From the NCBI RefSeq assembly GCF_001293685.1, contig NZ_BCAG01000003.1, positions 496,001 through 560,000 of the forward strand: DNA of 64,000 bases, read 5' to 3'. The notes under the pieces are model-generated. The model was given only the letters and a program-made list of their open reading frames with translations, was not told where the DNA came from and did not search any database. Shown piece by piece: positions 16,542-58,907 of this stretch. The position numbers and the translations under genes were made by a program. The DNA comes from Desulfatitalea tepidiphila (GTDB lineage: Bacteria; Desulfobacterota; Desulfobacteria; Desulfobacterales; Desulfosarcinaceae). Position 1 is the first letter of the stretch. Each line of letters opens with the position of its first letter.

Positions 16542-16602
16542 AAGTAAGAAAGTACGAAAGTAAGAACGTAAGAAGATGTGAAAGTGTGAAAGTAAGCAAG
16601 TG
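16533..16602 (+). repeat. 8-bp tandem repeat GAAAGTAN, about 8 units
   Basis: Successive units such as GAAAGTAA, GAAAGTAC, GAAAGTAA, GAACGTAA, GAAGATGT, GAAAGTGT and GAAAGTAA run between the second deaminase and the adenine deaminase gene. The repeat begins at or just inside the stop codon of the upstream gene. A shorter array of the same unit is at 49800-49840. Confidence 0.85.
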
Positions 16603-16620
16603 ATGGAACGGGGGCGATTG

Positions 16621-18351: not shown

Positions 18352-18382
18352 TGCGGTTGACATTAACAGAAAGGTCGAAGCC

Positions 18383-38525: not shown

Positions 38526-39926
38526 ATGCCCCAGGACAAACCCGCTACCTTCGGGGAGCTCAAACACATCGTCCCGCGTCTGCCCAACATCCGCCAGGAG
38601 ATGCGAGGCAACCTCATCCGTAAACTCAAAAACAGGGAGCGCCTCTTTCCGGATATGATCGGTTATGACGACACCGTGATGCCCGCCTTGATCAACGCGA
38701 TCCTCTGCGGACACAACATTATTTTTCTCGGTGAACGGGGTCAGGGAAAAAGCCGTATGATCCGGCGCATGATCGATTTTTTGGACGAAGAGATGCCCGC
38801 CGTGGCGGGCTGCCCCATTCATGACGACCCCTTCCATCCCATCTGCAGCGCATGCCGTCAGCGCAAGGCCGAGTTGGGCGACGCGCTGCCCATCACTTAC
38901 ATTCCCCGGGATCGCCGCCTGGTGGAGAAATTGGCCACCTCGGACGTGAGCACGGCCGATCTGATCGGTGAGGTGGACCCGATCAAAATCGCCAGAGGCC
39001 GAACGCTGGACGACGAATCGGCCATCCATTTCGGCCTGGTTCCCAGGGCCCATCGAGGGATCTTCGCCATCAACGAGCTGCCCGACCTGGCCGAAAAGAT
39101 CCAGGTCGCCTTTTTCAATATCATGGAAGAGAGCGATTTCCAGATCAAGGGATTCCCGGTCCGCCTGCCCCTGGACATTTTCATCGTGGCCACGGCCAAT
39201 CCGGAAGACTATACCAACCGAGGACGCATCATCACCCCGTTGAAGGATCGCTTCGATGCCCAGATTCGCACCCATTACCCACGGAAGCGGCAGCACGAAA
39301 TCGAGATCATGGCACAGGAGGCGCGCGGGCTTTCGGTCGACGGCATAGATGTCCAAGTGCCTGATTTCATGAAGGAGATACTAGCTGAAATCACATTTCA
39401 AGCGCGCGCCAGTTCCGACATCAACCAGCATTCGGGCGTCAGTTGCCGGGTCTCCATACGCAGTTACGAGGCGGTCTTGGGCAGTGCCGTACGACGTTGC
39501 CTGGAGTTGGACGAGAAATTGGCCGTACCCAGGATCACCGATATCGACATGACCTTTCCCGCCATTTCCGGAAAGATCGAGCTGGAATATCAGGTGCCGG
39601 ACGGCAGCGGTGACGATATCGTGGCGGATCTGGCCCGGCGGGCGATCAAGAACGTGTTCGACGGCTATTTTCAGTTGGAAGGATTGACCGGGATCATCGA
39701 CGCCTTCGAAAAGGGCATGAGCGTGGAGATATCCCGCTTTCAGCCGTCGGACGCCTATCTCGACGGCTTGAAATTCATCCCGGGGATGCAGGCGGCCGTC
39801 GAGCGGCTGACCGGCCTCGACAGCGCCCCGCGGGTCGCCGCGGCCCTCGAATTCGTGTTGGAAGGACTTCACCTGTCCAACAAGCTCAATCGTGAAGCCC
39901 TGGAAAACGGAGTGCGTTACAAATGA
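38526..39926 (+). CDS. MoxR/ChlI-like AAA ATPase
   Basis: This 466-residue ATPase has Walker A GERGQGKS at residues 69-76, a Walker B-like region GIFAINELP, sensor 1 FIVATANPEDY, and an Arg finger region after PLKDRFDAQI. It resembles the magnesium-chelatase I/MoxR group. A Cys/His-rich insert, CPIHDDPFHPICSAC (residues about 96-110), suggests a metal knuckle. The next gene encodes a VWA protein and overlaps by four bases (ATGA), the usual MoxR-VWA pairing that remodels or activates client proteins. The client is unknown; no chlorophyll or B12 chelatase genes are near. Confidence 0.85.
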   Translation: MPQDKPATFGELKHIVPRLPNIRQEMRGNLIRKLKNRERLFPDMIGYDDTVMPALINAILCGHNIIFLGERGQGKSRMIRRMIDFLDEEMPAVAGCPIHDDPFHPICSACRQRKAELGDALPITYIPRDRRLVEKLATSDVSTADLIGEVDPIKIARGRTLDDESAIHFGLVPRAHRGIFAINELPDLAEKIQVAFFNIMEESDFQIKGFPVRLPLDIFIVATANPEDYTNRGRIITPLKDRFDAQIRTHYPRKRQHEIEIMAQEARGLSVDGIDVQVPDFMKEILAEITFQARASSDINQHSGVSCRVSIRSYEAVLGSAVRRCLELDEKLAVPRITDIDMTFPAISGKIELEYQVPDGSGDDIVADLARRAIKNVFDGYFQLEGLTGIIDAFEKGMSVEISRFQPSDAYLDGLKFIPGMQAAVERLTGLDSAPRVAAALEFVLEGLHLSNKLNREALENGVRYK

Positions 39927-41512
39927 AGTTTTGGCGTTACAGCCGCTGGGACGGCACCCAGCCACCGTTCGACCATCGCAGGAAAGAGATGATCGACCAC
40001 TTCATGGAAAACATCATGAAGGGCATGTCGCCCGGCACGTCGCTGGCACAGATGCTTTGGGAGGGGTTTCCCCTGGCGGGCATGGACTTCCGGGTCATGG
40101 GGCTCGAAGAGATGGTCGCGGCCCTGGAGGAGCAAAAGGACGATCTGTTTTCGACCTACACTCTGGAGAAGATTTTCGAACAGCCCATGGAAGATTTCAG
40201 GTTTCTTCTCCAGAACGAAGCAATGAAGAGGAGAGAGATCGACGCCAAGCCCCCGCCCTCCTATGATTCGCTGCCGCCCGGCCTCCTGGAAAAGCTGCAC
40301 AGCTTGAAAGCCTTCGATTTTATTGACGATGAGAGCAGGCGAATGCACGATGCCTGGCAAACGAGACGGCAGGATATTCGCGACCTCTATGACTTTTACA
40401 GCGAATATGCCGATCGCTTTTACGGGGAGCAGGAACTGGATTTCGATAAGGCCCTGGCACTCATGCGGCAATTCCAGGAATTGGACCGGCTCCAGCGGAA
40501 GCTCTTGAGCGGCCGGCTCGAAGCGATCGATCCCGAACAACTGCGGCGAATGCTCGGTGACGATGCCCAGACCTCCTTCAACATCTTGCTGCAGCTGCCC
40601 CCCACCCTCTCCGGGGAAGGGCTGGTGCAGGGAGCGGGCGGACGACTGGAGATGACACCGAGAGGCTTGCGACGATTGGGCGAAAGTGCCTTCGGTCGAT
40701 TATTTTACCCTATTCAGAAGGATCGGCGGGGAGAGCATCAGGGCCATGCCCCCCAAACCGGGGATCTGCTTCCCGATTCCTCCCATGCCTATCGATATGG
40801 TGATCGATTTGACCTGGATTTGACCCGAACCCTTTTACAATCCATACCGCGGGGCGCGACACCGGCAGGGGCCATCGCACTGGACCCCGACGGGTTTTTC
40901 GTGCGCGAACGGGAGCAGCTGGTGACCACGACCACCGTGGTGTTGCTCGATCTTTCCTGGTCCATGTCGCGCGACGGCCGATTCGAGGCCGCAAAGAAGG
41001 TGGCCCTGGCGCTGGATCACTACATTCGTTCCCGGTTTCCCAAGGACAAGGTGCACACCATCGGTTTTTCTACGGAAGCGGTGGAGCTCAAGGGGCGCGA
41101 GCTCGCCATGGCGGTATGGGATGCCTACCGGCCCTTCACCAATCTGCAGGGGGCCCTCCAACTGGCCATGCAGCTGATCAAGCGCAGCGGCAACCGCAAC
41201 AACCGCGTGCTGGTCATCACCGATGGCCAGCCGACCGCCTACTATGTCCATGACGAGCTGCATGTGGAGTTTCCAGAGACGATCAACGGCCTGAGCCGCA
41301 ACGCCTGCATGGCGACCCTGGCCGAAGTGCGGCGCGTCACGGCCCAGGGCATGCACATCGACACCTTCATGCTGGACGACAGTCCGGTCTTGTTGGAATT
41401 TACCCGCGAAATGGCCCGCATCAACAAGGGTCGGGCCGTGCTCTGCCGGCCGGGCAAGCTGGGCGAACTGATTCTGGTCGAAGAGATCAAACGCAGGGGA
41501 GGGCGCACTTAG
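39923..41512 (+). CDS. VWA-domain protein partner of the AAA ATPase
   Basis: This 529-residue protein is helical and charged for the first 330 residues, then has a von Willebrand A domain with the MIDAS motif DLSWSMS, followed by FTNLQGALQLAM and VLVITDGQPT. It has no signal or membrane segment, so it acts in the cytoplasm. It overlaps the AAA gene as ATGA, so translation is coupled and the two proteins likely bind each other, as known for MoxR-VWA and ChlI-ChlD pairs. Confidence 0.87.
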   Translation: MKFWRYSRWDGTQPPFDHRRKEMIDHFMENIMKGMSPGTSLAQMLWEGFPLAGMDFRVMGLEEMVAALEEQKDDLFSTYTLEKIFEQPMEDFRFLLQNEAMKRREIDAKPPPSYDSLPPGLLEKLHSLKAFDFIDDESRRMHDAWQTRRQDIRDLYDFYSEYADRFYGEQELDFDKALALMRQFQELDRLQRKLLSGRLEAIDPEQLRRMLGDDAQTSFNILLQLPPTLSGEGLVQGAGGRLEMTPRGLRRLGESAFGRLFYPIQKDRRGEHQGHAPQTGDLLPDSSHAYRYGDRFDLDLTRTLLQSIPRGATPAGAIALDPDGFFVREREQLVTTTTVVLLDLSWSMSRDGRFEAAKKVALALDHYIRSRFPKDKVHTIGFSTEAVELKGRELAMAVWDAYRPFTNLQGALQLAMQLIKRSGNRNNRVLVITDGQPTAYYVHDELHVEFPETINGLSRNACMATLAEVRRVTAQGMHIDTFMLDDSPVLLEFTREMARINKGRAVLCRPGKLGELILVEEIKRRGGRT

Positions 41513-41791: not shown

Positions 41792-42070
41792 ATGGATTTT
41801 TGGCGCGTGCCTCTGGATGCGGGAAGCATCAACGTATCGCAAGGCGTGGTTCACATCATCGAGGATCGCTGCAAAGGCTGTGGGTATTGTATCGAATTTT
41901 GCCCGCGCAACGTTCTGGCATTTTCCGAACGGTTCAATAAAAAGGGCTACCATCCGCCGGAACTCGTGCAACCGGAGGGGTGTGTCAATTGCCATTACTG
42001 TGAAATCATCTGTCCGGAATTCGCCATCTTTTCGGTGGCCGTCGAAGCCGTCGACGGACGGACCGGATAG
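41792..42070 (+). CDS. korD: 2-oxoacid:ferredoxin oxidoreductase delta subunit (two-cluster ferredoxin)
   Basis: This 92-residue protein carries two [4Fe-4S] motifs, CKGCGYCIEFCP and CVNCHYCEIICP. It is the electron-transferring subunit of the enzyme encoded just downstream. CGGGAGTGGAAA precedes ATG 41792. The 164-base gap to korA holds no other gene. Electrons from 2-oxoacid decarboxylation would leave through these clusters to ferredoxin or directly to the adjacent Hdr-type proteins. Confidence 0.9.
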   Translation: MDFWRVPLDAGSINVSQGVVHIIEDRCKGCGYCIEFCPRNVLAFSERFNKKGYHPPELVQPEGCVNCHYCEIICPEFAIFSVAVEAVDGRTG

Positions 42071-42234
42071 CCCCTTGCTTCCCCAATATGCGCCGAGCAT
42101 GAGCCAGCGCTCCGCCTCCGAAATCGAGGCAGGCCTTTAACCGGTTCAATGCGGCGGCCAGGCGGGGGCGAAGCGAAACGCATCGGTTTTGGGCGGCTTT
42201 GTAAATACTTTTTGTACGCAATGACGAGAGACCT

Positions 42235-43380
42235 ATGAAACCAGCTGTACTTACCGGAGAGCATTACATGACGGGCGACGTGGCCTGTGCCGAAGGCGCC
42301 ATGGCGGCCGGTTGCCGATTTTTCGGCGGCTACCCGATCACACCGGCCACGGAGATCGCCGAACACATGTCCGGCCGGCTGCCCGATGTGGGCGGCACCT
42401 TCATCCAGATGGAGGACGAGATCGCGGCCATGGCATCGGTGCTCGGCGCGGCCTGGTCGGGATGCAAGAGCATGACCGCCACATCGGGGCCGGGTTTCAG
42501 CCTGATGATGGAAAACATCGGGCTGGGCGTCTGCACCGAAACCCCCTGCGTGGTGGTCAATGTGCAGCGCGGTGGGCCCTCCACCGGCCTTCCCACCATG
42601 GGGGCCCAGGCCGACATGATGCAGGCGCGCTGGGGTTCCCACGGCGACTACGAGATCATCGCCCTGGCCCCCTGTTCGGCCCAGGAGATTTTCTATCAGA
42701 CCATCACCGCGTTCAACCTGAGCGAGCGCTACCGCACACCGGTGTTCATCATGACCGATGAGATGATCGGCCACATGAGCGAGAAGGTGATTATCCCGCC
42801 GGCCGATCAGATCACGACCGAATGGCGGCCCAAACCCAAGGGTCGCAAGGATCGTTTCCTGCTCTTCAAGCCCGACGCGAACGGTGTGGCGCCCATGCCG
42901 GCGGCCGGCGATGGCTACAATGTCCACGTCACCGGATTGACCCACGACGAAAAGGGCTATCCCGTGATGTCGGTGGAGGCCCAAGAGGAGATGATGGCGC
43001 GCATCAAGCGCAAGATCCTGGGCAACCGCGACGACATCATCATGACCGAGGCGCATGGCCTGGATGACGCCGACATCGTGCTGGTGTCCTATGGCATTTC
43101 GGCCCGCACCAGCATGGCCGCCATGCAGCAGGCGCGGGTCCAGGGCCTCAAGGTCGGCCTGCTGCGGCTGATCACGGTCTGGCCCTTTGCCGAAGATCTT
43201 ATTCAGCGGTTGGCCGAAAGGGTCAAGGGATTCGTGACCGTCGAAGTGAACCTGGGGCAGATTCACCTGGAAGTGCTGCGCGCCGCCGCCGGCAGGGCGC
43301 CCTGTCACCTGGTCGGCCATTCGGGGGGTACCATCATCTCGCCGGACCAGGTGTTGGCCAAGATAAAGGAGGTGTTCTGA
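42235..43380 (+). CDS. korA: 2-oxoacid:ferredoxin oxidoreductase alpha subunit
   Basis: This 381-residue subunit has the pyrimidine-binding pattern GDVACAEGAMAAGCRFFGGYP followed by ITPATEIAEHM, and the active-site stretch SMTATSGPGFSLMMENIG. It is KorA-like in length and lacks the fused gamma domain. Substrate (2-oxoglutarate or branched/aromatic 2-oxoacids) cannot be decided by eye. The start has only GAGAG nearby. The stop overlaps the korB start by one base (TGATG), so translation is coupled. Confidence 0.9.
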   Translation: MKPAVLTGEHYMTGDVACAEGAMAAGCRFFGGYPITPATEIAEHMSGRLPDVGGTFIQMEDEIAAMASVLGAAWSGCKSMTATSGPGFSLMMENIGLGVCTETPCVVVNVQRGGPSTGLPTMGAQADMMQARWGSHGDYEIIALAPCSAQEIFYQTITAFNLSERYRTPVFIMTDEMIGHMSEKVIIPPADQITTEWRPKPKGRKDRFLLFKPDANGVAPMPAAGDGYNVHVTGLTHDEKGYPVMSVEAQEEMMARIKRKILGNRDDIIMTEAHGLDDADIVLVSYGISARTSMAAMQQARVQGLKVGLLRLITVWPFAEDLIQRLAERVKGFVTVEVNLGQIHLEVLRAAAGRAPCHLVGHSGGTIISPDQVLAKIKEVF

Positions 43381-44225
43381 TGTCCGCCACCGCCCAAGCA
43401 TCTGTCATGGCTCCGCCGGAGCATCCCCTCGAGGACCTGATCCGTTCGGACCGTATCCCCCACATCTGGTGCCCGGGCTGCGGCATCGGTACGGCCTTTG
43501 CGGCGTGTCTCACGGCCATGAAGGCCAGCGGCATCGATCTGCAGAAAACCTGCATGGTTTCGGGAATCGGCTGTTCGGGCCGGGCCGCCGGCTACGTGAA
43601 GCTCGATTCGTTTCACACCACCCACGGCCGGGCCATTCCATTCGCCACCGGACTGAAGCTCGGTAACCCGGAACTCAACGTGGTGGTCTTCAGCGGCGAC
43701 GGCGATCTGTTCGCCATCGGCGGTAACCATTTCATCCATGCCGCCCGGCGCAACATGGACCTGACGGTCATCTGCCTCAACAACCTCAACTACGGCATGA
43801 CCGGCGGCCAGGTGGCGGCCACCACCCCGCATCTGGCGCGCACCACCACCACCCCGGTGGGCAATCCCGAATCCCCGTTCAATCTGCCCCTGCTGGCCTG
43901 GGCTTCGGGGGCGACCTACGTGGCCCGCTGGACCGTGCTGCATACGCGCGAGCTGACCGATTGCATCAAAAAGGCGATCACCAAGAGCGGTTTTTCCTTT
44001 ATCGAGGTATTGGGGCCCTGCCCGGTCAACTATGGACGGCGCAACCGGGAAAAGCCCCTCGAAACCCTCAAGCTCTACCGTGATCAGACCATTATCCGGA
44101 ATAACGCCGATCCCGGCGATCTGGAGGTGGATTTCACCAAGAAGGTGGTGCTGGGTGAATTCGTGGACAAGGAGCGGGCCACCTGTATCGAAAACTACGA
44201 CCGAACCTGCCGCCCGGCATTATGA
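43380..44225 (+). CDS. korB: 2-oxoacid:ferredoxin oxidoreductase beta subunit (TPP-binding)
   Basis: This 281-residue subunit binds thiamine diphosphate and a [4Fe-4S] cluster. Seen are WCPGCGIGTAFAAC, SGIGCSGRAAGYV, the TPP motif FSGDGDLFAIGGNHFIHAAR and NLNYGMTGGQ. HTTHGRAIPFATGLKL is typical of the family. It follows korA with a one-base overlap and precedes the gamma subunit by 28 bases. Confidence 0.92.
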   Translation: MSATAQASVMAPPEHPLEDLIRSDRIPHIWCPGCGIGTAFAACLTAMKASGIDLQKTCMVSGIGCSGRAAGYVKLDSFHTTHGRAIPFATGLKLGNPELNVVVFSGDGDLFAIGGNHFIHAARRNMDLTVICLNNLNYGMTGGQVAATTPHLARTTTTPVGNPESPFNLPLLAWASGATYVARWTVLHTRELTDCIKKAITKSGFSFIEVLGPCPVNYGRRNREKPLETLKLYRDQTIIRNNADPGDLEVDFTKKVVLGEFVDKERATCIENYDRTCRPAL

Positions 44226-44253
44226 TCCGGTTCGCCGCAGCGAGGAGTTGACG

Positions 44254-44829
44254 ATGTACAAACAGATCACGATAACCGGTTTCGGTGGCCAGGGGGTGAT
44301 CCTGGCCGGCCGCATCATGGGCGAGGCGGCCGCCATCCTGGACCACCTGGAGAGCACCCTGGTGCAATCCTATGGGCCCGAGTCGCGCGGCGGCGCCTGC
44401 AGTGCCCAGGTGACCATTGCCGATGGACCGATCTATTTCCCCTACATTCAGAACCCCGATATCCTGGTGTGCCTCTCCCAGTCGGGCTACGACAAGCACG
44501 CGGCCACACTCAAAAAGGACGGTGTGTTGATCGTCGAGCAGGACCTGGTCAAGCCCGAAGGCGGGCGGGACTATTTCGCCGTGCCATGCACCCGGTTCGC
44601 CGAAGAGTTGGGCAACAAGATGATGGCCAATATCATCATGGTTGGATTTTTCACGGCCATCACCGGTGCCATTTCATTGGAGGCCGCCCGCGCTACCGTG
44701 GAGAAATCGGTGCCCAAGGCCACCATCGAGAAGAACGTCAAGGCCTTTGAACGCGGCTGGGAGTATGCCCAGGCCACCCTCAAGGGGCGGCGCGAAAAAG
44801 CCGCGGGACGGATAGGAGTCGTGGCATGA
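44254..44829 (+). CDS. korC: 2-oxoacid:ferredoxin oxidoreductase gamma subunit
   Basis: This 191-residue subunit starts ITITGFGGQGVILAGRIM and continues with SYGPESRGGACSAQV, the standard gamma-subunit signatures that form part of the CoA-binding region. GAGGAGTTGACG precedes ATG 44254. Its stop overlaps the start of the next flavoprotein gene as ATGA, which ties the Kor enzyme and the flavoprotein into one translational unit. Confidence 0.92.
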   Translation: MYKQITITGFGGQGVILAGRIMGEAAAILDHLESTLVQSYGPESRGGACSAQVTIADGPIYFPYIQNPDILVCLSQSGYDKHAATLKKDGVLIVEQDLVKPEGGRDYFAVPCTRFAEELGNKMMANIIMVGFFTAITGAISLEAARATVEKSVPKATIEKNVKAFERGWEYAQATLKGRREKAAGRIGVVA

Positions 44830-47800
44830 AACATCCCAAGAACAGGTTGCACAGCGTGGTGATTCTCGGTGCCACCCCGGCCGGCGTGGCGGCGGCCAAC
44901 AAGCTGGGCGAGCTGGGAGTTCCCATCACCCTGGTCGATGTAGACGCCGATCTGGATCGGAAGCTGGCCGCCGAGACCTATCGTCTCGAATCCGGGGTCC
45001 CGTTCAATTATGCCCATCGTCCCGGCCTGATTCGCATCCTGCGCAATGCCAATATCCGCTGCGCCATGCCGGCCCGTGTCCGTTCGGTCAAGCACAGCCA
45101 GCAAGGTTTTCGGGTACAGATCGATCTGCAGCCGACTTACGTGGATGCGGAGCGCTGCACCCTCTGTGGCCGATGCGTCGAACAATGCCCGGTATGCGGG
45201 CCCGACGGCCACCGCCCCATCCAGATGGAAGGCCGGACGGCCCTGCCGGGTCGGGTGGTCATCGACAAGCGGCGCGAACCTTTGTGCCAGGCCAACTGCC
45301 CGCTGGGCGTCAATGTCCAGGGCTACATGGCCCTGACCGCGGCCGGGCGTTACCAGGAAGCCCTGGACCTGATCCGGCAGGACAACGTGCTGCCCGGCAT
45401 TTGCGGACGCGTTTGCACCCATCCCTGCGAGGCCGCCTGCCGGCGCAGCGAAAAAGACGGCGCCCTGGCCATCCGCGACATCAAGCGTTTCGTGGCCGAC
45501 CGGGCCGCCGACCGCAGCGAAACGCTTCCCGAAGCCAGATGGCACGGAGACGGCCCGCCCGTCGCCGTGGTCGGATCCGGTCCGGCCGGTTTGGCCGCGG
45601 CCGCAGATCTGGCCCGTCAGGGATGCGCGGTGACGGTCTATGAGCGGGAAAAAGAGGCGGGCGGACTGCTGCGCTACGGCATCGGTCCCCACCGACTGCC
45701 GCGGGAGATACTGGACGCCGAGCTGGCCGCCATCGCGGCCGAAGGCGTGCGTTTCGTCACCGGTCACGAGGTGACCTTGCCCGAGGGGCTGGTCGAGTTG
45801 AGCCAAAGCCACCGGGCCGTGATCGTCACCACCGGCTCGTGGCTCGACCGCCGCCTGGGGGTCGAGGGCGAGTCTCTCGAGGGGGTGCAGGGGTGCCTCT
45901 CCTTTTTAACTCGCTACTATCGCGGGAAGGCCGGCGACGTCGGCGGCCGGGTGGCCGTTATCGGCGACGGCAATGCCGCCTTTGACCTGGCCCGGGTGCT
46001 CAACCGCATCGGCGCCCGGGTGACCATCATGTCGTGGTTCGGCCGGGAAGAGATTCCCGCAGACAGCGACGAGGTCGAGGCAGCCCTCCAGGAGGGAATC
46101 GACATCCAGGATCGTTGCCAGGTAGTGGGTTTTGCCGGTCGCAACGGGCGGTTCGAAGCGTTGCAGATCCGGGCCACCCGGCCGGGGGCAGCTGACGCCA
46201 ACGGCATCGCCTGGCCCGAGATCGTTCCAGAGAGTGCGGTGGTGGAACAGCCCTTTGACCGGGCCTTCGTGGCCATCGGTCAAGGCGGTGCCTACCGCGT
46301 CACCGGCGCCACCGCCGGCTGGCAAATTAGCGACCGGGGGCTGCTCGTGACCGATGCATCGGGGCAGAGCGGCCTTTCCGGTGTTTATGCGGCCGGCGAT
46401 GCCGTTGCCGGGGCCACATCCGTCGTGCATGCCATGGCCGCCGGCCGCCGGGTGGCCCGGCAGGTGATCCAGGAGCTGCACCTGAAAAGCAATGGCACTG
46501 CCTGCAAACAGATCCATCCCATCCGACCCACGGGACGGGATTTCGATCCGATTCCCGACGATCTGCCGCTCCAGCCGAGAACCGTCATGCCGGAGTTGCC
46601 CCCGTCCCGACGCCGGGCCAATTTCAGTGAGGTGGCCATGGGGTTCGACGAGCGGCTGGCGGAGGCCGAAGCCGGTCGTTGTCTGCAATGCGGCAGCTGC
46701 GCCCAGTGTCTGGCGTGCCTGCCGGTTTGCGAGGCCAACCAGGCTATCCGGCATGACGATCAGATGGAAACCATCCTGGAGAATGCCGGCGTGTTGATCG
46801 TAGCGGACCCTGACCTGGCGCCGGGTATCCGCGGCGACGATGTGATTCGGGCCTACGGACCGCCGGCGGCCAAAAGCGACGTCCACGCCATGATGCTGCG
46901 CGGTTTTTCAGCCGCGGCGCGGGCCATGGTGCTGCTCCAGCAGAATGGCATGCGCATGAAGGGGCAGGGCATCACCTTCGCACCGCCCGATGCCGGCCTG
47001 GACCGCCATGTCCGCATCGGCGTCTTCGCATGCCGATGCAACGATTCCCTCGGCTGGCTGCCCGAGATGGACGCCTGTTTGAAAAGACTGGGTGACCAAC
47101 CGGACGTCGTTTACACCGAAGTGCTGGCCTCGGCCTGCACGCCCGAGGGTATTCAGCGCATGGTCGACAGCGTCCGTGACCGGGGCCTCACCCGACTGGT
47201 GGTGGCCTCTTGCGTCTGCTGTCCGCTCAATTTCGTCTGCAGCGCCTGCACCGATCAGCGCAGCCGGCTCAAACGGGGGCTGTTCGAAGGTACGGGGATC
47301 AGCCGTTCCATGGTGCAGACTTTGAACCTGCGCGGCGAAGTCCTCCGGCACGCGGCGAGTGACGCTGAGCTGGCCGTGCGCCTGTTCGAAGGCATTATGG
47401 CGCGCAGCGTCGGCCGTGCGCGCAAGCTGCTGCCTTTTCCGGCCCCGGCACGCAGTTACAATTTTACCACCGCGGTCATCGGGCAGACCGAAGCGGCCCG
47501 CTATGCGGCGCTGACCCTGGCCCAGGCCGGTTTCGAGGTGCTGATGTTCGGATCGGCGCGTCATCCTCTCGGCGAGTCACCGGACCATCCGAACGTTTTC
47601 GCTTTTGAAGGATCGACCGCCCATGCGGTGAGTGGCACCATCGGAAATTTCCAGATCCATGCCATGTTTGGCGACGCCCCGCGCACCTTCACCGTGGGCG
47701 GCGTCATATTGGGAGAAAAATCCCGCAGCATCGCCATTTATCGTCCCCATGCCGACCTTCCCGGCATGAAGGTGCAGGCCGGCATGCAAAAAGCCGGTTT

Positions 47801-48209
47801 GCCGGGTATCCCCTACATGTACCCCTGCGGCACCTCCATATCGGGGCTTTTTCTCGCCGATCCGCCCGGGATCCAGATTTCCAAGCGGACCAAGGGCGAA
47901 GCGGCGGCGGTTCTCACGGCGGCGGCCATGCCCCGGGGACCGCGTCAGAGCCGGGGCTTTTCGGTGGTGATCGATGCCGCCCTCTGCCGCGGCTGCGGCC
48001 GCTGTCTGAAGGCATGTCCCTATCAGGCGGTCAACCTCAAGCCCAACGGCGATATCGGATTCACCGCAGTGGTGGACGAGGCCCTGTGCAAGGGCTGCGG
48101 TAACTGCATATCGGTCTGCCCATCCAACGCGGCCGATAGTCCTTTTCGCGATCAGGTCTACCTGGAGCAGACCCTGGAAGAGTTGCTGGTCTCCAGCAGC
48201 AGGAGTTGA
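44826..48209 (+). CDS. Large GltD/HdrA-like iron-sulfur flavoprotein
   Basis: This 1127-residue fusion has, in order: a Rossmann-like start (VVILGATPAGVAAANKLGEL, residues 11-30); a ferredoxin motif CTLCGRCVEQC (111-121); GltD-type Fe-S region (154-205, CQANCPLGV, CGRVCTHPCEAAC); FAD motif VAVVGSGPAGLAAA (about 247); NADPH motif VAVIGDGNAAF (about 376); GVYAAGDAVAG; a Cys cluster CLQCGSCAQCLAC; an HdrA N-terminal-like domain (IGVFACRCNDSLGWLP with CSACTDQRS); and a two-cluster ferredoxin tail (CRGCGRCLKAC, CKGCGNCISVC). It should bind NAD(P)H, FAD and several clusters, and link Kor to the Hdr proteins downstream. Start is coupled to korC by ATGA. Function is inferred from modules and neighbours. 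Confidence 0.85.
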   Translation: MKHPKNRLHSVVILGATPAGVAAANKLGELGVPITLVDVDADLDRKLAAETYRLESGVPFNYAHRPGLIRILRNANIRCAMPARVRSVKHSQQGFRVQIDLQPTYVDAERCTLCGRCVEQCPVCGPDGHRPIQMEGRTALPGRVVIDKRREPLCQANCPLGVNVQGYMALTAAGRYQEALDLIRQDNVLPGICGRVCTHPCEAACRRSEKDGALAIRDIKRFVADRAADRSETLPEARWHGDGPPVAVVGSGPAGLAAAADLARQGCAVTVYEREKEAGGLLRYGIGPHRLPREILDAELAAIAAEGVRFVTGHEVTLPEGLVELSQSHRAVIVTTGSWLDRRLGVEGESLEGVQGCLSFLTRYYRGKAGDVGGRVAVIGDGNAAFDLARVLNRIGARVTIMSWFGREEIPADSDEVEAALQEGIDIQDRCQVVGFAGRNGRFEALQIRATRPGAADANGIAWPEIVPESAVVEQPFDRAFVAIGQGGAYRVTGATAGWQISDRGLLVTDASGQSGLSGVYAAGDAVAGATSVVHAMAAGRRVARQVIQELHLKSNGTACKQIHPIRPTGRDFDPIPDDLPLQPRTVMPELPPSRRRANFSEVAMGFDERLAEAEAGRCLQCGSCAQCLACLPVCEANQAIRHDDQMETILENAGVLIVADPDLAPGIRGDDVIRAYGPPAAKSDVHAMMLRGFSAAARAMVLLQQNGMRMKGQGITFAPPDAGLDRHVRIGVFACRCNDSLGWLPEMDACLKRLGDQPDVVYTEVLASACTPEGIQRMVDSVRDRGLTRLVVASCVCCPLNFVCSACTDQRSRLKRGLFEGTGISRSMVQTLNLRGEVLRHAASDAELAVRLFEGIMARSVGRARKLLPFPAPARSYNFTTAVIGQTEAARYAALTLAQAGFEVLMFGSARHPLGESPDHPNVFAFEGSTAHAVSGTIGNFQIHAMFGDAPRTFTVGGVILGEKSRSIAIYRPHADLPGMKVQAGMQKAGLPGIPYMYPCGTSISGLFLADPPGIQISKRTKGEAAAVLTAAAMPRGPRQSRGFSVVIDAALCRGCGRCLKACPYQAVNLKPNGDIGFTAVVDEALCKGCGNCISVCPSNAADSPFRDQVYLEQTLEELLVSSSRS

Positions 48210-48212
48210 TGC

Positions 48213-49799
48213 ATGCCGACCGAGTTTAAAATCGTTTTGTTTTTGTGCAGCTGGGGGCCCCACGCAGCCTTTCAGCGCCTGCAGGACCAGCGGGCGGATA
48301 TTCCCCCGGAGATCAAGATGGTCCGCATCCCATGCAGCGGCCGAATCAGCAAGGCATTGCTGTTCAAGCCGTTTGAAATGGGGGCCGACGGTGTCATCCT
48401 GGTGGGCTGCGCGCCCGGGGCCTGCCGGTACGGCACGGGAACCGAGACGGCCGCCGAGAACACCGAGGATACGCGCCGGATCCTGGACCTGATCGGGTTG
48501 GACGGCGAAAGGGTGCAACTGGGCAATTTTCAGCCCGATGCCGCGGATGATCTTCTGGCCTTTCTCAAGGCGTTTGCGGCCCGCATACGCGAACTGGGGA
48601 AAAGCCCGGTTCGGACTCAGGCGGGCCGGGATCGGTTTACAAGCGAACCGGAGACGGTCGAGGCCATCGTGGCCCGGCACGATGTGTTTGCCTGTCAGGA
48701 CTGCGGCAAATGCACGTCGGCCTGCTCTCTGGCCCTGGCCGGAAAGCCTTTCTCGCCGCGTTATGTGGCCGCCGAGATCATCGCCGGGCATGCCGACCGG
48801 CCCGACGTGCGGGAGTCGGTGAACGCCTGTTTAACTTGCGGCGTCTGCTACGAGCGCTGTCCTTCGGCCGTCAATTTCCCGGAATTCATCAAGGACATGC
48901 GCGCCTATTATCACGAGCGCGACGTATCGGCCGCTCCGGCCCACGGCGGTTTTTTCCAGAGCATGATGCGCGCCATGACCTCCGAACCCCTGGTGCCGAG
49001 GCGCTGGACGCACCTGCCGGAGAGCATTCGCACAAACCCGAAGAGCCGGGTGCTGTTCTTCGGCGGCTGCGCGTCCTACTTCGACATCTTCTTTCATAAA
49101 TTCCTCGCCGTACAGACCGAACGCATCGTCGAAGACAGCCTCAGGCTGCTCAACTTCTTCGATGTGGAACCGGCCCTGATGAGCGACGAGCGGTGCTGCG
49201 GGCACGATCTGCTCTGGTCCGGCGACCGCGAGAATTTTCTTCGCCTGGCCCGGATCAATGCCGACGCCATCGCGGCAACCGGCGCCGAAGAGATCATCAC
49301 GGCTTGTCCCGAATGCTGTCACACCCTCGGCACCGAATACGCGCGTTACGGCATCGAATTGTCGGTGAAGGTGACCCACATGCACGCTTTCCTGGAACGG
49401 GAGATCGGCAAGGGAGCCGTGGCGTTCAAGGCCCCCCAGGGCCGCATGGCCTTTCAGGATGCCTGCCGCCAGAGCCGTTTCGATGGCCAGGCCGATTTGC
49501 CCCGAAAATTGCTCAAACATCTGTGCGCGGATACCACCGATGCGCTGGACGACGACGGGGCGCCGACGCCGTGCTGCGGCAACAGCGCCTGGATCGGTTG
49601 TGATGCCTTCAGCAAACACTTCCAGGTCCAGCGTCTGCAACGGGTGTGTCAAAGCGGTACCACCAACCTGATCACGGCCTGCCCGAAATGCCAGATCCAC
49701 CTGCGCTGTGCCATGGAGGACGTGCTGCGCGGCGACGACCTGAAAGTGGAGACGATGGATCTGGTGAGTGCCATCGCCAGGTCGATTTATTGGGCATGA
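48213..49799 (+). CDS. MvhD-HdrC-HdrB-like fusion
   Basis: This 528-residue protein joins an N-terminal MvhD/FrhD-like domain (VRIPCSGRISKALL, GADGVILVGC) that carries electrons to HdrA, an HdrC-like two-cluster ferredoxin (CQDCGKCTSAC, CLTCGVCYERC), and an HdrB-like part with two Cys-Cys-Gly type sequences (DERCCGHDLLW with ACPECCHTLG; CCGNSAW with ACPKCQIHLRC) that can hold noncubane clusters acting on disulfides or quinones. The start is three bases after the preceding stop, with GGAG upstream. In methanogens the equivalent modules reduce heterodisulfide; the acceptor here is unknown. Confidence 0.88.
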   Translation: MPTEFKIVLFLCSWGPHAAFQRLQDQRADIPPEIKMVRIPCSGRISKALLFKPFEMGADGVILVGCAPGACRYGTGTETAAENTEDTRRILDLIGLDGERVQLGNFQPDAADDLLAFLKAFAARIRELGKSPVRTQAGRDRFTSEPETVEAIVARHDVFACQDCGKCTSACSLALAGKPFSPRYVAAEIIAGHADRPDVRESVNACLTCGVCYERCPSAVNFPEFIKDMRAYYHERDVSAAPAHGGFFQSMMRAMTSEPLVPRRWTHLPESIRTNPKSRVLFFGGCASYFDIFFHKFLAVQTERIVEDSLRLLNFFDVEPALMSDERCCGHDLLWSGDRENFLRLARINADAIAATGAEEIITACPECCHTLGTEYARYGIELSVKVTHMHAFLEREIGKGAVAFKAPQGRMAFQDACRQSRFDGQADLPRKLLKHLCADTTDALDDDGAPTPCCGNSAWIGCDAFSKHFQVQRLQRVCQSGTTNLITACPKCQIHLRCAMEDVLRGDDLKVETMDLVSAIARSIYWA

Positions 49800-49840
49800 A
49801 AAAAAGTAGGAAAGTATGAAAGTACGAAAGTATGAAAGCA
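49800..49840 (+). repeat. 8-bp tandem repeat GAAAGTAN, short array
   Basis: The array reads GTAG, then GAAAGTAT, GAAAGTAC, GAAAGTAT and GAAAGCAG, the same unit as at 16533-16602. It starts right at the stop codon of the MvhD-HdrCB gene and lies before hdrA. Confidence 0.8.
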
Positions 49841-49925
49841 GGGATGTGGCAGAGCAGCAAGGCAGAACGGTATGAATGAGGGAAGATTCAGGTATTCTGC
49901 CGAATTTCTAAAATAGGAAATGATC

Positions 49926-52358
49926 ATGACAACATCGACTGTTTTATCTGTGCCAGGCGTGCTGCCGTCCGCTGACAGTGAGGTGCGCATCGGGGTGTAT
50001 GTCTGCCACTGCGGCATGAACATCGCCCAGACCGTAGATTGCGACGGGGTGGCCGAGGCCATGGTCAATCTGCCCGATGTGGTGGTGGCCAAAGGCATCG
50101 GGTATGCCTGCAGCGAGCCGGGACAGCGCGAAATCCGCGAGGACATCGCCACCCACGGGCTGAATCGCATCGTGGTGGGATCCTGTTCGCCCCGATTGCA
50201 CGAGCCCACCTTCCGGCAGATGCTGATCGCCGCCGGCCTCAACCCCTATCTCCTGGAGATGGCCAATCTGCGCGAGCAGTGCAGCTGGGTGCACATGAAG
50301 ACCCCCGAGGCCGCCACGGCCAAGGCCCACGATCTGGTCAAGATGGCGGTGGCCCGGGCCCGAAGGCTTCAATCGCTGACCGACCCCATGCTGCCCATGA
50401 CCCAGAGGGCGCTGGTGATCGGCGGCGGCGTGGCCGGTATCCAGGCGGCCCTGGACATGGCCGACAACGGATACGAGGTGGTGATGGTCGAACGCCAACC
50501 GTCCATCGGCGGCGTGATGGCCCAACTGGACAAGACCTTCCCCACCATGGATTGCTCGATCTGAATTCTCGGTCCCAAGATGACGGATGCCGGTCGGCAT
50601 CCCCGGATCAAGATCCACACGCTGAGCGAAGTGGTGGACGTCAAGGGCAACGTGGGCAGTTTCGAGGTGAAAATCGTCAAAAAGGCCCGCTACGTGGACG
50701 AAAAGGCCTGCACCGCGTGCGGTGAATGTGCCAAGGTGTGCCCGGTGGTGCGGCCGGACGAGTTCAACATGGGTCTATCGTCGCGCCATGCCATCTACTC
50801 GCCGTTTCCCCAGGCCGTACCGTCGGCCTATGTCCTCAATCCCGGCGAGTGTCTGGGCAACAACCCGGTGGTGTGCAGCAAATGCCTGGACGCCTGCGAG
50901 AAGAAGTGTATCGATTTTCACATGTCCGACGAGACCATCGCCGAGCGCGTGGGGACCATCGTGGTGGCCACCGGTCTGACACCCCATGACCCGCGGGCGC
51001 TGGATGAATACGGCTACACGCGCTTTGAAAACGTGCTGACCAGCCTGGAGTTCGAGCGCCTGGTCAATGCCGGCGGCCCCACCCAAGGCCACCTGGTGCG
51101 GCCCTCGGATCGCAAACGGCCGCGATCGGTGGCCTTCATACAATGCGTGGGGTCGCGGTCGGCCCGCCGCGGCAAATCATACTGTTCCAACATCTGCTGC
51201 ATGAATACAATCAAGAGCACCCTGGTACTCAAGGAGCACTACCCGGACATGGACATCAAGGTATTCTACATCGATATCCGTGCCTTCGGCAAAGGTTTCG
51301 AGGACCTGTACACCCGCAGCCGGCGGGCGGGGGTGCACTACGTTCGCGGACTGCCCGGACATGTGGAAGAACTGTCCGACGGGCGGCTGCGCGTGGCCGT
51401 GGAAAACACGGCCGGGTCGTCCCTGGATTTCTACGACCTGGATATGCTGGTGCTGGCCGTGGGCATCGAACCGGCCGCCGGAACCCACAGGCTTCAGGAG
51501 ATGATGGGGCTTCAGCTCTCGCCGGACGGCTTTTTCCTCGAGGCGCACCCCAAGCTGCAGCCGGTGGATGCCGCCACGCGCGGCGTTTTCTACGCCGGAT
51601 GCGCCGAAGGGCCAAAAGATATCAAGGAGAGTGTTACTCAGGCTTCGGCGGCCGCGGCGCGGGCCATCCGCCTCATGCAATCCAGCCAGATCCGCGCCGA
51701 GGCCATTACTTCGGAAGTGATCACCGAGCAGTGCAAGGCGTGCGGCAAATGTGCCGAAGTGTGTCCGTACAACGCCATTACCGTGGATCCCAAGAAGAAG
51801 ATTCCGGCCAAGATCGCCACTGCCGCCTGCACCGGCTGTGGGACCTGTGCGGCCGAGTGCCCCTTCGGGGCCATCGTCATGAATCACTTTACCGACCGCC
51901 AGATCTACGACCAGATCGACGCCCTGCTCGACGACCGGCCGGCGGATAAAATTCTCACCTTTGCCTGCAACTGGTGCTCTTACGCCGGGGCCGATTACGC
52001 CGGCGTGTCCAGGTTGCAGTATCCGCCCAACGCGCGCCTGATCCGCACCATGTGCTCGGGGCGGGTCGACGAGGATTTCATCTGGTACGCATTCAAAAAA
52101 GGGGTGCCGGTGGTCCTGGTGAGCGGCTGCCACATCGGCGATTGTCATTACATCGACGCCAACCATTGGACGGTCAAGCGGGTCGAACGGGTGCGCAAGA
52201 AGATGGAAAAGCGCGGCCTGCGAACTGATCGTCTGCAACTGGAGTGGATCAGCGCCGCCGAAGGCATCCGTTTCGCGGAAGTCATGACGCGCATGGAGCA
52301 GTTGCGGCAATCGGTATCTGAAAAAGAGATCGCCGAAACCATAGCCCTATTGAGTTGA
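49926..52358 (+). CDS. hdrA: HdrA-MvhD fusion, predicted selenoprotein (UGA at 50562-50564 read as Sec)
   Basis: This is an 810-residue FAD iron-sulfur protein, the core of flavin-based electron bifurcation in Hdr complexes. In-frame TGA at residue 213 lies in DKTFPTMDCSI-U-ILGPKM, the position where HdrA has Cys or selenocysteine, and the same frame continues for almost 600 residues with full HdrA features. Before it: CHCG and GSCSPRLHEPTF, and FAD motif VIGGGVAGIQ (164-173). After it: CTACGECAKVC, GLTPHDP, FIQCVGSRS, NICCMNTIKS, CKACGKCAEVC, CTGCGTCAAEC, then a C-terminal MvhD domain (ACNWCSYAGAD, MCSGRVDED, GCHIGDCHY). ATG 49926 is preferred to 49920 by AGGA spacing. Its 3' end overlaps the convergent cyclase gene by 12 bases. 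Confidence 0.92.
50585..50602 (+). promoter_or_regulatory. Candidate bacterial SECIS hairpin for hdrA
   Basis: A perfect 7-base stem, GGATGCC (50585-50591) and GGCATCC (50596-50602), closes a GGTC tetraloop. The loop starts 28 bases after the TGA, within the known range for SelB-binding elements, and GGUC is the loop of the E. coli fdhF SECIS. It lies within the hdrA reading frame. Confidence 0.7.
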
Positions 52359-53384
52359 ATTTGTTCTGGTCAGGCCGTGGCCGATGCGGAAGACCCGGAT
52401 CGGTCGGTCCAGGCCTTTGACAGCGGTATCGGGCAGTGCCTCGATGTCGTTGGTTCCATCCAGTTGCGCGGCCGTGGCGGCATCCACCAAAATTTCGCCG
52501 CTACGGGCCAGCCCCTGCAAGCGGGCGGCGATGTTGACGGCCATGCCCACGCAGGTGAACTCCTTTTTGCGCATGGATCCCATGATGCCCGAAAAGACTT
52601 TTCCGCTGGCGATGCCGATCCCGGTCTGCAGGCGCAGATGGGGATGGCCGATATACTTCCCATCGATTTCGGCGGCCTTGCGCTGCATGTCGATGGCCGT
52701 ACTCACGGCCCGACGGGCGTCGTCCGGCCGGGCCACCGGCGCACCGAAAACGACCATCATGCTGTCTCCGATATGTTTGTCCAAGGTACCTTGATGCTGG
52801 TAGGCGATGTCGCCCAGGGGGGTGAAGTAGTCGCCGTTGAGAAATTCGACCAGTGCTTCCGGCGACACGTGCTGGGACATGGCCGTGAAGTTCCGGATGT
52901 CCGAGAATAAAATGGTGACATCCTGGAGACGGGGGGTCAGCGAAAGAGGGGACCTGTTGATCTCTTCGTAGATCTGCTCGGAGACGAACTGGCGCAGGTG
53001 CTTGCGAACCCAGATGTCGCGGATCTTGGCGCGCAGCTCCACGTTATCGAAGGGTTTGGTCAGGAAGCCGTCGATGCCGCAGTTGGTCGCTTCGATGGCC
53101 GCCTCCATGGTGGCATAGCCGGTCAGGATGATGCGGGTGATCTCAGGATTGATGCCCCCGATGATCTTCAGGGTCTCCAGGCCGTCGATGCCCGGCATTT
53201 TGAAATCCGAGACCACCGTCACGATCTCTTCCACATGATTCTCGACCACCCCGATGCCTTCGCGTCCGTCGCCGGCCGTGTAGATGTGGTAGGGTTCGCG
53301 CTTCAGGGCGCGTTGCACCGAGCGGCGAACCCCTTCTTCGTCATCGATGAATAGAATACTCTGGGCTGAATTCCGGATGTCCAT
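52347..53384 (-). CDS. Response regulator with class III adenylate/guanylate cyclase domain
   Basis: This 345-residue protein has an N-terminal receiver domain (ILFIDDEEGVRRSVQ, phospho-acceptor Asp in VVSDFKMPGIDG, Lys in LTKPF) and a C-terminal cyclase homology domain with VTILFSDIRNFTAMS and HIGDSMMVVFGAP, which hold the metal Asp residues, plus AVNIAARLQ. It should make cyclic AMP or GMP in response to phosphorylation by an unlinked histidine kinase. GAGGAA precedes the ATG. The gene faces hdrA and overlaps its end by 12 bases. Confidence 0.9.
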   Translation of the reverse strand: MDIRNSAQSILFIDDEEGVRRSVQRALKREPYHIYTAGDGREGIGVVENHVEEIVTVVSDFKMPGIDGLETLKIIGGINPEITRIILTGYATMEAAIEATNCGIDGFLTKPFDNVELRAKIRDIWVRKHLRQFVSEQIYEEINRSPLSLTPRLQDVTILFSDIRNFTAMSQHVSPEALVEFLNGDYFTPLGDIAYQHQGTLDKHIGDSMMVVFGAPVARPDDARRAVSTAIDMQRKAAEIDGKYIGHPHLRLQTGIGIASGKVFSGIMGSMRKKEFTCVGMAVNIAARLQGLARSGEILVDAATAAQLDGTNDIEALPDTAVKGLDRPIRVFRIGHGLTRTNSTQ

Positions 53385-56366: not shown

Positions 56367-56501
56367 TAATTGGTGTCCATCCATACATGATACCTTCTGT
56401 GGATGGACAGCACGTGGTTCTTGATGTGCATAACCTACGACGCCGGGGTATCAAAGGCATCTTACCGGCGAACAAACCGCATTTGGGTATTAGGAGGGAT
56501 C

Positions 56502-58907
56502 ATGACAAGGAAAATCAGGAAAGCGGCGGTCATCGGGTCCGGTGTGATGGGCGGAGGCATTGCGGCCCTTTTGGCCAGTGCCGGAATCAAGACACTTTTG
56601 CTCGATATCGTTCCGTTCGATCTCAAAGAGGAAGAAAAAAAGGACCCCAAGGCACGCAATCGCATCGTCACAGCCGGTTTGCAGGGTATTCAGAAGGCCA
56701 GGCCGGCGGCCCTGATGCACCCGAGCGACATCAATCTGATCTCGATCGGCAACACGGAAGATGATTTCGACAAGTTGGCCGATTGCGACTGGATCGTGGA
56801 GGTGGTCGTCGAGAACCTCAAAATCAAACAACAGCTTCTCAAGCGCATCGAGCCGGTGCGCAAAAAAGGCGCCATCGTTTCCTCAAACACCTCCGGTATC
56901 CCCCTTAAGGCCATGAGCGAAGGGTTGAGCGATGATTTCAAACAGCACTTCCTCGGAACCCATTTTTTCAACCCGGTGCGTTACATGAAGTTGCTGGAGA
57001 TCATCCCCGGCGAGCAGACGCTTCCCGAAGTCTTGACATTCATGGCCGATTTTGGTGAACGCAAATTGGGCAAGGGCATTGTCTGGGCCAAGGATACGCC
57101 CAATTTCGTGGGCAACCGCATCGGTGTGCACGGCTCGACCCGCACCATGCAGATCATGCTCGAAGAGGGACTGACCATTCCCGAAGTCGACGCGCTGTTC
57201 GGGCCGGCAATGGGACGCCCCAAGACCGGCGTTTTCAAGACCACCGATCTCGTGGGCCTGGACATTGCCGCCCATGTGTCCAAAAATACCTACGAGCTGG
57301 TGACCGATGACGAAGCCCGCGACGCGTTCGTCCTGCCCGAATTCGTCCAGAAGATGCTCGACAAAAAGATGCTGGGCAACAAGACCAAGGGCGGGTTCTA
57401 CAAGACCGATCTGACCCCGGAATGGAAAAAGATCCGCAAGGTGCTGGACCTCAACACCTTCGAATACAAAGAGTATGACAAACCCGACTTCCCCTGCCTG
57501 ACGGCCGCCAAGAAGGCCAAGACCGATGAAGAGAAGATCCAGGCCATGGTGTTCGGCGACGACAAGGGTGCCAGGTTCGTCTGGCGGGTGACGGCAGAAG
57601 GGTTGATTTACGCCGCCAACCGGATTCCCGAAATTGCCGACACCATCGTGGAAATCGACAACGCCATGCGCTGGGGCTACGGCATGGATCGCGGGCCGTT
57701 CGAAGTGTGGGACCTGCTCGGCGTCGCCCGCGTGGTCGAACGCATGGAAAAAGATGGATTGGTGGTGCCGGCCAAGGTCAAGGAGATGCTCGCCGCCGGA
57801 AACACCTCTTTCTATAAGGTCGAAAAGGGACAACGCTTCTTCTACGACTTTGTCACCAAGAGCTACAAACCCATCGTCACCAGCGACACCGTGATCTCCC
57901 TTGCCATGCTCAAAGCGGCCAAGGGCGTGGTGCTGGGCAACGCGTCGGCCTCGTTGATCGATCTGGGCGACGGCGTTTTTTGCGCCGAGTTCCACACCAA
58001 GATGAATGCGCTCAACGACCAGATCGCGGAGTTCCTGGAACAAGCGCACGACTATGTGGATGCCAACGGCGTCGGCATGGTCATCGGCAACCAGGCCGGC
58101 GGCATGCCCGGGGCCTTTTCGGCCGGCGCGGACCTGGTCCAGGTCAAGGAGGCGGCCGCCCAGGGTTTGTTCGATGACATCGAAAAGGCGGTCAAGCGTC
58201 TTCAGGATGTGATTCAGCGCGAACGTTACAGCTGCTATCCGGTCGTGGCGGCGCCGTTCGGCCTGGCCTTGGGCGGTGGTTGCGAGATCTGCCTGGGCGC
58301 GGATCGGATCGTGGCCCATTCGGAGCTTTACATGGGATTGGTCGAGGTCGGCGTCGGCCTGCTGCCCGGCGGCACCGGTTGTCACGCCCTGTGGCGCAAG
58401 GTGATCGAGAACATTCCGGCATCGGTGCCTGATTACGAATTGACCAAATTCTTTATTCCCGTTTTCCAGGCCATCGCCATGGCCCAGGTCTCCACATCGG
58501 CGGCCGAAGCCCGTGCCAGGGGCTTCCTTGGTCCCAAGGACCGCGTCGTCTTCAACCGCGATCATTTGATCGGCGAGGCGAAAAAGGAAGTGCTGCGCAT
58601 GGCCGACGACGGCTACACCCCGCCGGTGAAACGGCCGTTGCGGGTGTTGGGCGAAGCGGCCTTCGGCATCGCCAACGCCGAACTGCTCAACATGACCAAT
58701 GCCGGTTACGCAAGCGAGTATGACGCCTATCTGGCCAGCCGCATCGCCTTCGCCATCGGCGGGGGGCAGAGTCGGACCGGGAGCCTGATGAGCGAAGATT
58801 CCATGCTGGCCCTGGAGCGGAAGACCTTCGTCGACCTGCTGAAACAAGAGAAGACCATTGCCAGGATCGAACATATGCTCAAGACAGGCAAGCCGTTGCG
58901 CAACTAA
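56502..58907 (+). CDS. fadN: 3-hydroxyacyl-CoA dehydrogenase / enoyl-CoA hydratase (FadN type)
   Basis: This 801-residue bifunctional beta-oxidation enzyme has the NAD-binding dehydrogenase first (AAVIGSGVMGGGIAALLASAG, SSNTSGIPL, GTHFFNPVRYMKLLEII, KDTPNFVGNRIG) and the crotonase-fold hydratase last (GGMPGAFSAGADL, APFGLALGGGCEICLGADR, GLVEVGVGLLPGGTG). This order is that of Bacillus FadN, the reverse of FadB/FadJ. TAGGAGGGATC precedes ATG 56502. The thiolase follows after 56 bases, so the operon covers the last three steps of beta-oxidation. Control by the upstream FadR-like site is inferred. Confidence 0.93.
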   Translation: MTRKIRKAAVIGSGVMGGGIAALLASAGIKTLLLDIVPFDLKEEEKKDPKARNRIVTAGLQGIQKARPAALMHPSDINLISIGNTEDDFDKLADCDWIVEVVVENLKIKQQLLKRIEPVRKKGAIVSSNTSGIPLKAMSEGLSDDFKQHFLGTHFFNPVRYMKLLEIIPGEQTLPEVLTFMADFGERKLGKGIVWAKDTPNFVGNRIGVHGSTRTMQIMLEEGLTIPEVDALFGPAMGRPKTGVFKTTDLVGLDIAAHVSKNTYELVTDDEARDAFVLPEFVQKMLDKKMLGNKTKGGFYKTDLTPEWKKIRKVLDLNTFEYKEYDKPDFPCLTAAKKAKTDEEKIQAMVFGDDKGARFVWRVTAEGLIYAANRIPEIADTIVEIDNAMRWGYGMDRGPFEVWDLLGVARVVERMEKDGLVVPAKVKEMLAAGNTSFYKVEKGQRFFYDFVTKSYKPIVTSDTVISLAMLKAAKGVVLGNASASLIDLGDGVFCAEFHTKMNALNDQIAEFLEQAHDYVDANGVGMVIGNQAGGMPGAFSAGADLVQVKEAAAQGLFDDIEKAVKRLQDVIQRERYSCYPVVAAPFGLALGGGCEICLGADRIVAHSELYMGLVEVGVGLLPGGTGCHALWRKVIENIPASVPDYELTKFFIPVFQAIAMAQVSTSAAEARARGFLGPKDRVVFNRDHLIGEAKKEVLRMADDGYTPPVKRPLRVLGEAAFGIANAELLNMTNAGYASEYDAYLASRIAFAIGGGQSRTGSLMSEDSMLALERKTFVDLLKQEKTIARIEHMLKTGKPLRN

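Follow-up and report, generated by a model that had tools for sequence, protein, structure and literature searches.

A conserved seven-gene block in Desulfatitalea tepidiphila that may couple a 2-oxoacid synthase to HdrA-type electron bifurcation

The HdrA module of heterodisulfide reductase (Hdr) has so far been known with hydrogenase, formate dehydrogenase, Flx/NADH and MetF as its partners. Among the closest described systems is HdrA2B2C2 of Methanosarcina acetivorans (PMC5296606; this and the other papers cited below were drawn on in part, and our statements refer to those parts), in which HdrA is fused to MvhD and works with HdrB and HdrC. Here, we analyzed a block of seven genes, 41792-52358, in a 64,000-nucleotide stretch of the sulfate reducer Desulfatitalea tepidiphila (the window; positions 496,001-560,000 of its contig, in a genome of 5.61 Mb). 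All on the plus strand, the genes encode KorD, KorA, KorB, KorC, an HdrL-type protein, an MvhD-HdrC-HdrB fusion and an HdrA-MvhD protein (HdrA2 below), the last of which passes NF040770. While HdrA2B2C2, as described, is without Kor or HdrL and uses F420H2 and ferredoxin as donors and CoM-S-S-CoB as acceptor, the block joins a second MvhD to HdrB and HdrC in one protein and has a selenocysteine in HdrA. From sequence comparison and predicted structures we consider it probable, at roughly 60%, that the block encodes one soluble, reversible complex, which would couple NAD(P)H, a disulfide-type partner of HdrB and a 2-oxoacid/acyl-CoA couple at the flavin of HdrA2.

Open reading frames as well as Pfam and NCBIfam scans agree on the seven genes in this order, as an earlier sequence-only reading of the stretch had proposed. 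That reading had also described one translational run. Three junctions are indeed tight (KorA/KorB overlap by 1 base, KorC/HdrL overlap in an ATGA, and HdrL and the fusion lie 3 bases apart), but the other three of the six are loose (KorD-KorA, 164 bp; KorB-KorC, 28 bp; fusion-HdrA2, 120 bp), so that this description was too strong. Judging from the sequence, the seven genes likely form a single operon. Terminator-like sites (11 versus 8.8 in shuffles; standard deviation [SD], 2.6) and promoter-like sites (4 versus 2.5; SD, 1.6) occur near chance level.

The conservation of gene order marks the block as a unit. A scan of the GTDB-species collection with the C-terminal part of HdrL gave 280 relatives, and gene order was analyzed in the best 80 of these 280. 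The order is kept in 80/80 as far as the contigs reach, with all seven genes in 49 and contig-end cuts in 31; at four loci the next gene was not detected though part of it should fit (L113, with 836 bases free, and L071, L073 and L114, with ~480 to 530 bases). The nearest named relative locus in this set belongs to a Desulfatitalea metagenome-assembled genome (MAG; 97% over the HdrL C-terminal part), and the full set of seven occurs in isolates such as Desulfatitalea alkaliphila, Desulfatibacillum alkenivorans, Desulfocicer vacuolatum, Desulfoferrobacter suflitae, Desulforhabdus sp. TSK and Desulfobulbus alkaliphilus. When the seven proteins were compared by tblastn with 20 stretches from 19 relatives, the complete order was found in 15, the complete order with a split fusion in 1 (G045) and contig-cut remnants in 4. 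The block is present in 51 of 194 genomes of the order and in 34 of 297 genomes of an even phylum sample, 20 of them close (E ≤ 1.5e-217) and 14 distant (E, 4.9e-83 to 3.4e-73). Even at the distant loci, where HdrL identity is ~30%, the order is kept in 14/14; all seven genes are present in 11, the other 3 begin inside the block at a contig edge, and the fusion matches as two pieces in 10 of the 14.

Scattered genes in related genomes had been named as an outcome that would refute the proposed coupling complex; instead, the order holds across the phylum, and MAG G047 is the one case in which it is broken. An arrangement arising by chance or as a local quirk is ruled out by the kept order across the 80 best and 14 distant loci. 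In the flanks, 381 open frames were compared, coming from 54 of the 80 loci on the upstream side and from 67 on the downstream side; no family occurs in more than 6 loci, so that the unit comprises these seven genes, as far as seen; likewise, no conserved metabolic neighbor that would name the substrate is common to more than 6 loci in this set. Distances correlate among the six larger genes in 53 loci (r, 0.59 to 0.88), a result that was not used, since relatedness alone yields such values. In a plasmid search none of 168 matches covers 80%, and the ten matches listed involve the GltD part only.

KorA with at least 61% identity is found in 23 of 60 genomes (our own and 59 relatives; in G026, in two pieces), the next best full-length match having 49%, and the same 23 genomes have HdrL, seen either as a match past the GltD part or in the locus as read (G048 and G057). 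A second KorA (~45%) occurs in many of these genomes, whether or not they have the block. The D. tepidiphila genome itself contains a complete second KorDABC on the same contig at ~256 kb and a third set at ~2.36 Mb; no Hdr genes lie beside these two in stretches of 13 and 7 kb, nor beside three stand-alone Kor sets of relatives. A 42-row KorA tree separates block type I, block type II and the stand-alone forms from one another (3 label changes; minimum, 2), and the branch joining type II and seven stand-alone forms against the rest has support of 97/95, with two stand-alone rows being long and badly placed. By tree and distribution, the block's Kor is a separate lineage dedicated to the block. 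Its KorD furthermore begins with a tail, MxFWRxPLD, whose W4, R5, P7 and D9, together with G18, are invariant in all 66 aligned block-linked KorD proteins (that of the window, those of 53 of the 54 named loci with KorD, and 12 distant ones; L059, which is cut, L056 and L237 were left out) and absent from 8 stand-alone KorD proteins; the delta subunit of 8ys5 aligns only behind it. This could be a docking tail, which we offer as a lead.

These data bear on a rival explanation, namely, that the block encodes co-regulated but separate enzymes, with an ordinary Kor reducing free ferredoxin and a separate HdrL-HdrABC re-oxidizing it with NAD(P) and a disulfide, so that the link is metabolic rather than physical. 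KorDABC alone is a complete 2-oxoglutarate oxidoreductase in 8ys5, which we take to be from H. pylori, and KorDABC sets stand alone elsewhere in the D. tepidiphila genome. HdrA2B2C2 of M. acetivorans, moreover, is described as working with ferredoxin (PMC5296606). The strict gene order at large evolutionary distances, the distinct Kor lineage and the KorD tail speak against separate enzymes, and we regard this explanation as rather unlikely, albeit a serious contender.

With respect to substrate, the KorABCD subunits, the YPITP motif and the thiamine pyrophosphate (TPP) domain are those of Kor/Oor enzymes. At the positions aligned to the pocket residues Lys49 and Asp468 of StOFOR, KorB has Arg and KorA has Leu, and none of the four subunits reaches the cut-offs of 2-oxoglutarate-specific models. 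Assignment to phenylglyoxylate:NAD oxidoreductase (Pad) was not supported, as PadG, PadI and PadE gave 67.7, 49.7 and 56.8 bits versus cut-offs of 700, 700 and 300. We propose 2-oxoglutarate as the most likely substrate of the block's Kor.

In HdrL, HdrA-like parts are split around a GltD/NfnL/StnC-like module for NAD(P)H and flavin adenine dinucleotide (FAD), with an HdrA N-domain and two C-terminal [4Fe-4S] motifs. The nearest folds to the GltD module in a predicted-structure search are StnC and NfnL. At the position of the NfnL Glu, a ligand residue that was itself inferred with an alignment, HdrL has Lys220 in 60/60, the lysine of the StnC type, and an NfnAB-type Glu-ligated proximal cluster was thus not found in HdrL. 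A rival view would make the GltD-type FAD the bifurcating flavin, as in NfnAB, with HdrA2 acting only as a relay. Although the NfnL-like fold of the module would suit this view, the invariant lysine and a cluster motif like that of StnC, which has a non-bifurcating FAD, make it highly improbable. HdrL furthermore lacks the HdrA flavin-site segment, which HdrA2 keeps. HdrL is therefore probably, by sequence and predicted fold, the NAD(P)H input and not a second bifurcating flavin. The fold search returned one HdrA-like chain (6tjr_A) among the matches listed, because the GltD module fills the match list; the HdrA kinship of HdrL rests on sequence. Many HdrL paralogues occur in G000 and relatives, as open frames of ~1130 to 1550 aa, and a single in-frame TGA interrupts several of them; these paralogues diverge from the block's HdrL past residue 660.

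In the fusion protein, the two [4Fe-4S] motifs of HdrC and the two complete CCG motifs of HdrB are present in 14/14 rows, and in a 44-row alignment all fusion motifs are invariant except Cys368 (at least 90%). HdrA2, aligned to 5odc_A over residues 21-672 and above the NF040770 cut-off, has the FAD-proximal [4Fe-4S] ligands, two C-terminal clusters and the MvhD domain (FlpD). Two HdrA-like proteins and a GltD module are present, as the sequence-only reading had stated, yet only one flavin, that of HdrA2, appears competent for bifurcation, since HdrL is without the flavin-site segment and its GltD module is StnC-like. The proposal that electrons meet on HdrA flavin thus remains the best reading, with one flavin rather than two by sequence and fold.

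The predicted selenocysteine of HdrA2 was borne out by the in-frame TGA, a selenocysteine insertion sequence (SECIS) and a tRNA-Sec gene in the genome (73.4 bits; gathering score, 47). The codon is kept in 17/17 loci, in 62/62 named loci spanning it and in 22/22 loci, among them all 14 distant ones (some genomes belong to more than one set); by this conservation, every HdrA2 copy checked is a selenoprotein. A stem with a GGUC loop 20 bases past the TGA matches in 79 of 100 loci, the 21 misses including loci without HdrA2 or with a cut one, and its inner pair covaries (C-G, 32; U-A, 32; U-G, 14; G-A, 1). As the single-sequence RNA fold of this region is not more stable than shuffles (z, -0.80), the case for the SECIS rests on conservation. 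A sequencing error or pseudogene as the source of the TGA is ruled out by the conserved codon and SECIS. Sec215 aligns with Cys197 of 5ODC HdrA (position counted by hand). According to Chadwick et al. (PMC9012536), the N-domain cluster in one HdrA has Cys197 of the partner HdrA as a ligand, and in tandem HdrA genes of anaerobic methanotrophic (ANME) archaea N-domain and Cys197 are complementary.

Considering these features, we infer a complex, with its electron path, dimer, direction, 2-oxoacid and HdrB partner, along the following lines. HdrA2 and HdrL would form an unequal HdrA dimer, in which the selenocysteine of HdrA2 serves as a cross-subunit ligand of the HdrL N-domain cluster. HdrL would take or give hydride at NAD(P)H through its StnC-like, non-bifurcating FAD, and single electrons would reach the HdrA2 FAD, the bifurcation site, through the clusters of HdrL and the [2Fe-2S] site of an MvhD domain. 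The high-potential branch would run from there via HdrC to HdrB and a partner disulfide or similar acceptor; the low-potential branch would run via the HdrA ferredoxin domain and KorD to the thiamine center of KorAB (2-oxoacid/acyl-CoA + CO2), involving no free ferredoxin. The potentials are ~-520 mV for 2-oxoglutarate, -320 mV for NADH and ~-140 to -280 mV for disulfides, which puts the three-way reaction near equilibrium, so that either direction is possible. For growth on substrates that yield acyl-CoA, not 2-oxoacids, reductive carboxylation or confurcation would fit, and plain 2-oxoglutarate catabolism fits less well; the two citrate synthases and one DsrC of the genome do not settle the direction.

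Several observations weigh against a single complex of this kind. In MAG G047, KorDAB lies mid-contig and the contig continues without KorC and HdrL, HdrL being on another contig; a repeated short sequence stands at this break point (L240, 8812-9060), and the break may be a rearrangement or an assembly fault. At distant locus L238, genes for a histidine kinase with a GAF domain and for a response regulator (16289-18545) separate HdrCB from HdrA2, and at distant locus L237 a similar kinase (1-1011, minus strand) stands behind HdrCB, where the contig ends before any HdrA2; by their position, these kinases hint at signal control of the block. In the window, a gap of 120 bp lies in front of hdrA2, and the end of the fusion gene carries a weak terminator-like site (49758-49783). 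PorD proteins have a WRxxRP element, so that the KorD tail may not be special and is a lead only, and extra N-domain cysteines in HdrL (798, 799, 805 and 808) could substitute for the HdrA2 ligand. Finally, in the fold search the HdrCB part matched EtfD best, rather than HdrB. HdrCB might accordingly pair with an electron-transferring flavoprotein (ETF) in an EtfD-like manner rather than with a disulfide, high-potential electrons from acyl-CoA dehydrogenation and low-potential ones from the 2-oxoacid confurcating to NAD(P)H. Since both CCG motifs are complete as in HdrB, and the unit is without an ETF gene and its flanking genes are not widely shared, we consider this pairing improbable.

Table 1. 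Coordinates of the block and its features in the window
Feature	Position	Strand	Description and basis
korD	41792..42070	+	92 aa, dicluster ferredoxin subunit; domain scan
KorD N-terminal tail MDFWRVPLD	41792-41818	+	Alignment of block-linked KorD
korA	42235..43380	+	381 aa, POR_N/PFOR_II, YPITP motif; NF006412 565.3 bits (cut-off 411)
korB	43380..44225	+	281 aa, TPP-binding subunit; domain scan
korC	44254..44829	+	191 aa, POR gamma domain
HdrL-type protein	44826..48209	+	1127 aa; domain scans and sequence comparison
GltD/StnC-like module of HdrL	45267..46727	+	Residues 148-634
HdrA N-terminal domain within HdrL	47004..47435	+	Residues 727-870; Cys 736, 738, 771 and 796 kept in 60/60
MvhD-HdrC-HdrB fusion	48213..49799	+	528 aa; both CCG motifs complete
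hdrA2-mvhD	49920..52358	+	812 aa, residue 215 selenocysteine; NF040770 1186.3 bits (cut-off 1100)
In-frame TGA of hdrA2	50562..50564	+	Read as selenocysteine; aligned to Cys197 of 5ODC HdrA
SECIS hairpin GGAUGCC-GGUC-GGCAUCC	50585..50602	+	Begins 20 nt past TGA; conservation

Directly upstream of KorD, a MoxR-like AAA gene and a VWA/CoxE-like gene overlap by 4 bases (38526-41512); upstream families are not widely common to related loci. On the minus strand, a gene for a response regulator fused to an adenylate/guanylate cyclase (52347-53384) shares 12 bases at its 3' end with the end of hdrA2. The window also contains a FadB-like 3-hydroxyacyl-CoA dehydrogenase/enoyl-CoA hydratase fusion (56403-58907) and, at 33896-36591, two overlapping genes, one for an alpha/beta hydrolase and one encoding a Tli4_C immunity domain, which are a candidate effector-immunity pair.

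If the proposed complex exists, the lowest-potential step of central carbon metabolism would sit directly on a bifurcating flavin in a widespread group of anaerobes, and electrons of very different energy would be shared out without a membrane. It would also allow CO2 to be fixed through reductive carboxylation at the expense of NAD(P)H and account for some of the many unexplained Hdr genes in sulfate reducers.

Parts of this locus have been described before. HdrL1-3 of Desulfobacterium autotrophicum HRM2 (PMC2702500) are HdrA/GltD fusions with mvhD nearby and selenocysteine proteins, and the block's HdrL likewise holds HdrA and GltD parts in one protein with an MvhD domain in the next gene; unlike the block, the HRM2 loci hold dsrABC, fdh and other hdr genes, with no link to Kor in the sections drawn on. 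The selenocysteine-containing hdrA1 of Desulfococcus multivorans lies at 0.32 Mbp with mvhD1 and Dmul_C02800, a pyridine nucleotide oxidoreductase (PMC5109826), and is by place the same as the block at 315-335 kb; Kor neighbors are not mentioned there ("kor" has 0 matches in the main text). This cultured host carrying the block makes our proposal testable. In StnABC/NfnABC transhydrogenases (PMC10482914), the GltD module feeds NAD(P)H electrons into a bifurcating module distinct from it, as we propose for HdrL; the bifurcating module is of the HydBC type there, whereas that of the block would be of the HdrA type. MetFV-HdrABC-MvhD and FlxABCD-HdrABC (PMC5736913, PMC10553843) join HdrA(BC) to a pathway enzyme or NADH module, as in the block, neither being reported with Kor or HdrL in these accounts. 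In open-licence PMC literature (subscription reviews, e.g., Appel et al. 2021, being outside the search), HdrL, HdrA2 and other Hdr couplings are described and no Kor-Hdr unit is; on this literature, what is new here is the Kor-linked Hdr unit, parts of the locus being already known from D. multivorans. The closest functional parallel would be the methanogen Hdr-formylmethanofuran dehydrogenase supercomplexes (7bkb; PMC11656701), in which Hdr bifurcation feeds a CO2-converting enzyme via a bound ferredoxin subunit, as proposed for the block; here, Kor replaces formylmethanofuran dehydrogenase, and an NAD(P)H module replaces H2 or formate. By this analogy it is possible, though tentative, that the block is their bacterial counterpart, a 2-oxoacid synthase driven by HdrA-type bifurcation, in which NAD(P)H electrons would be split at the flavin of the selenocysteine-bridged HdrA2-HdrL pair, the low-potential electron passing via KorD to the reductive carboxylation of acyl-CoA and the other to a disulfide, such that CO2 is fixed without free ferredoxin.

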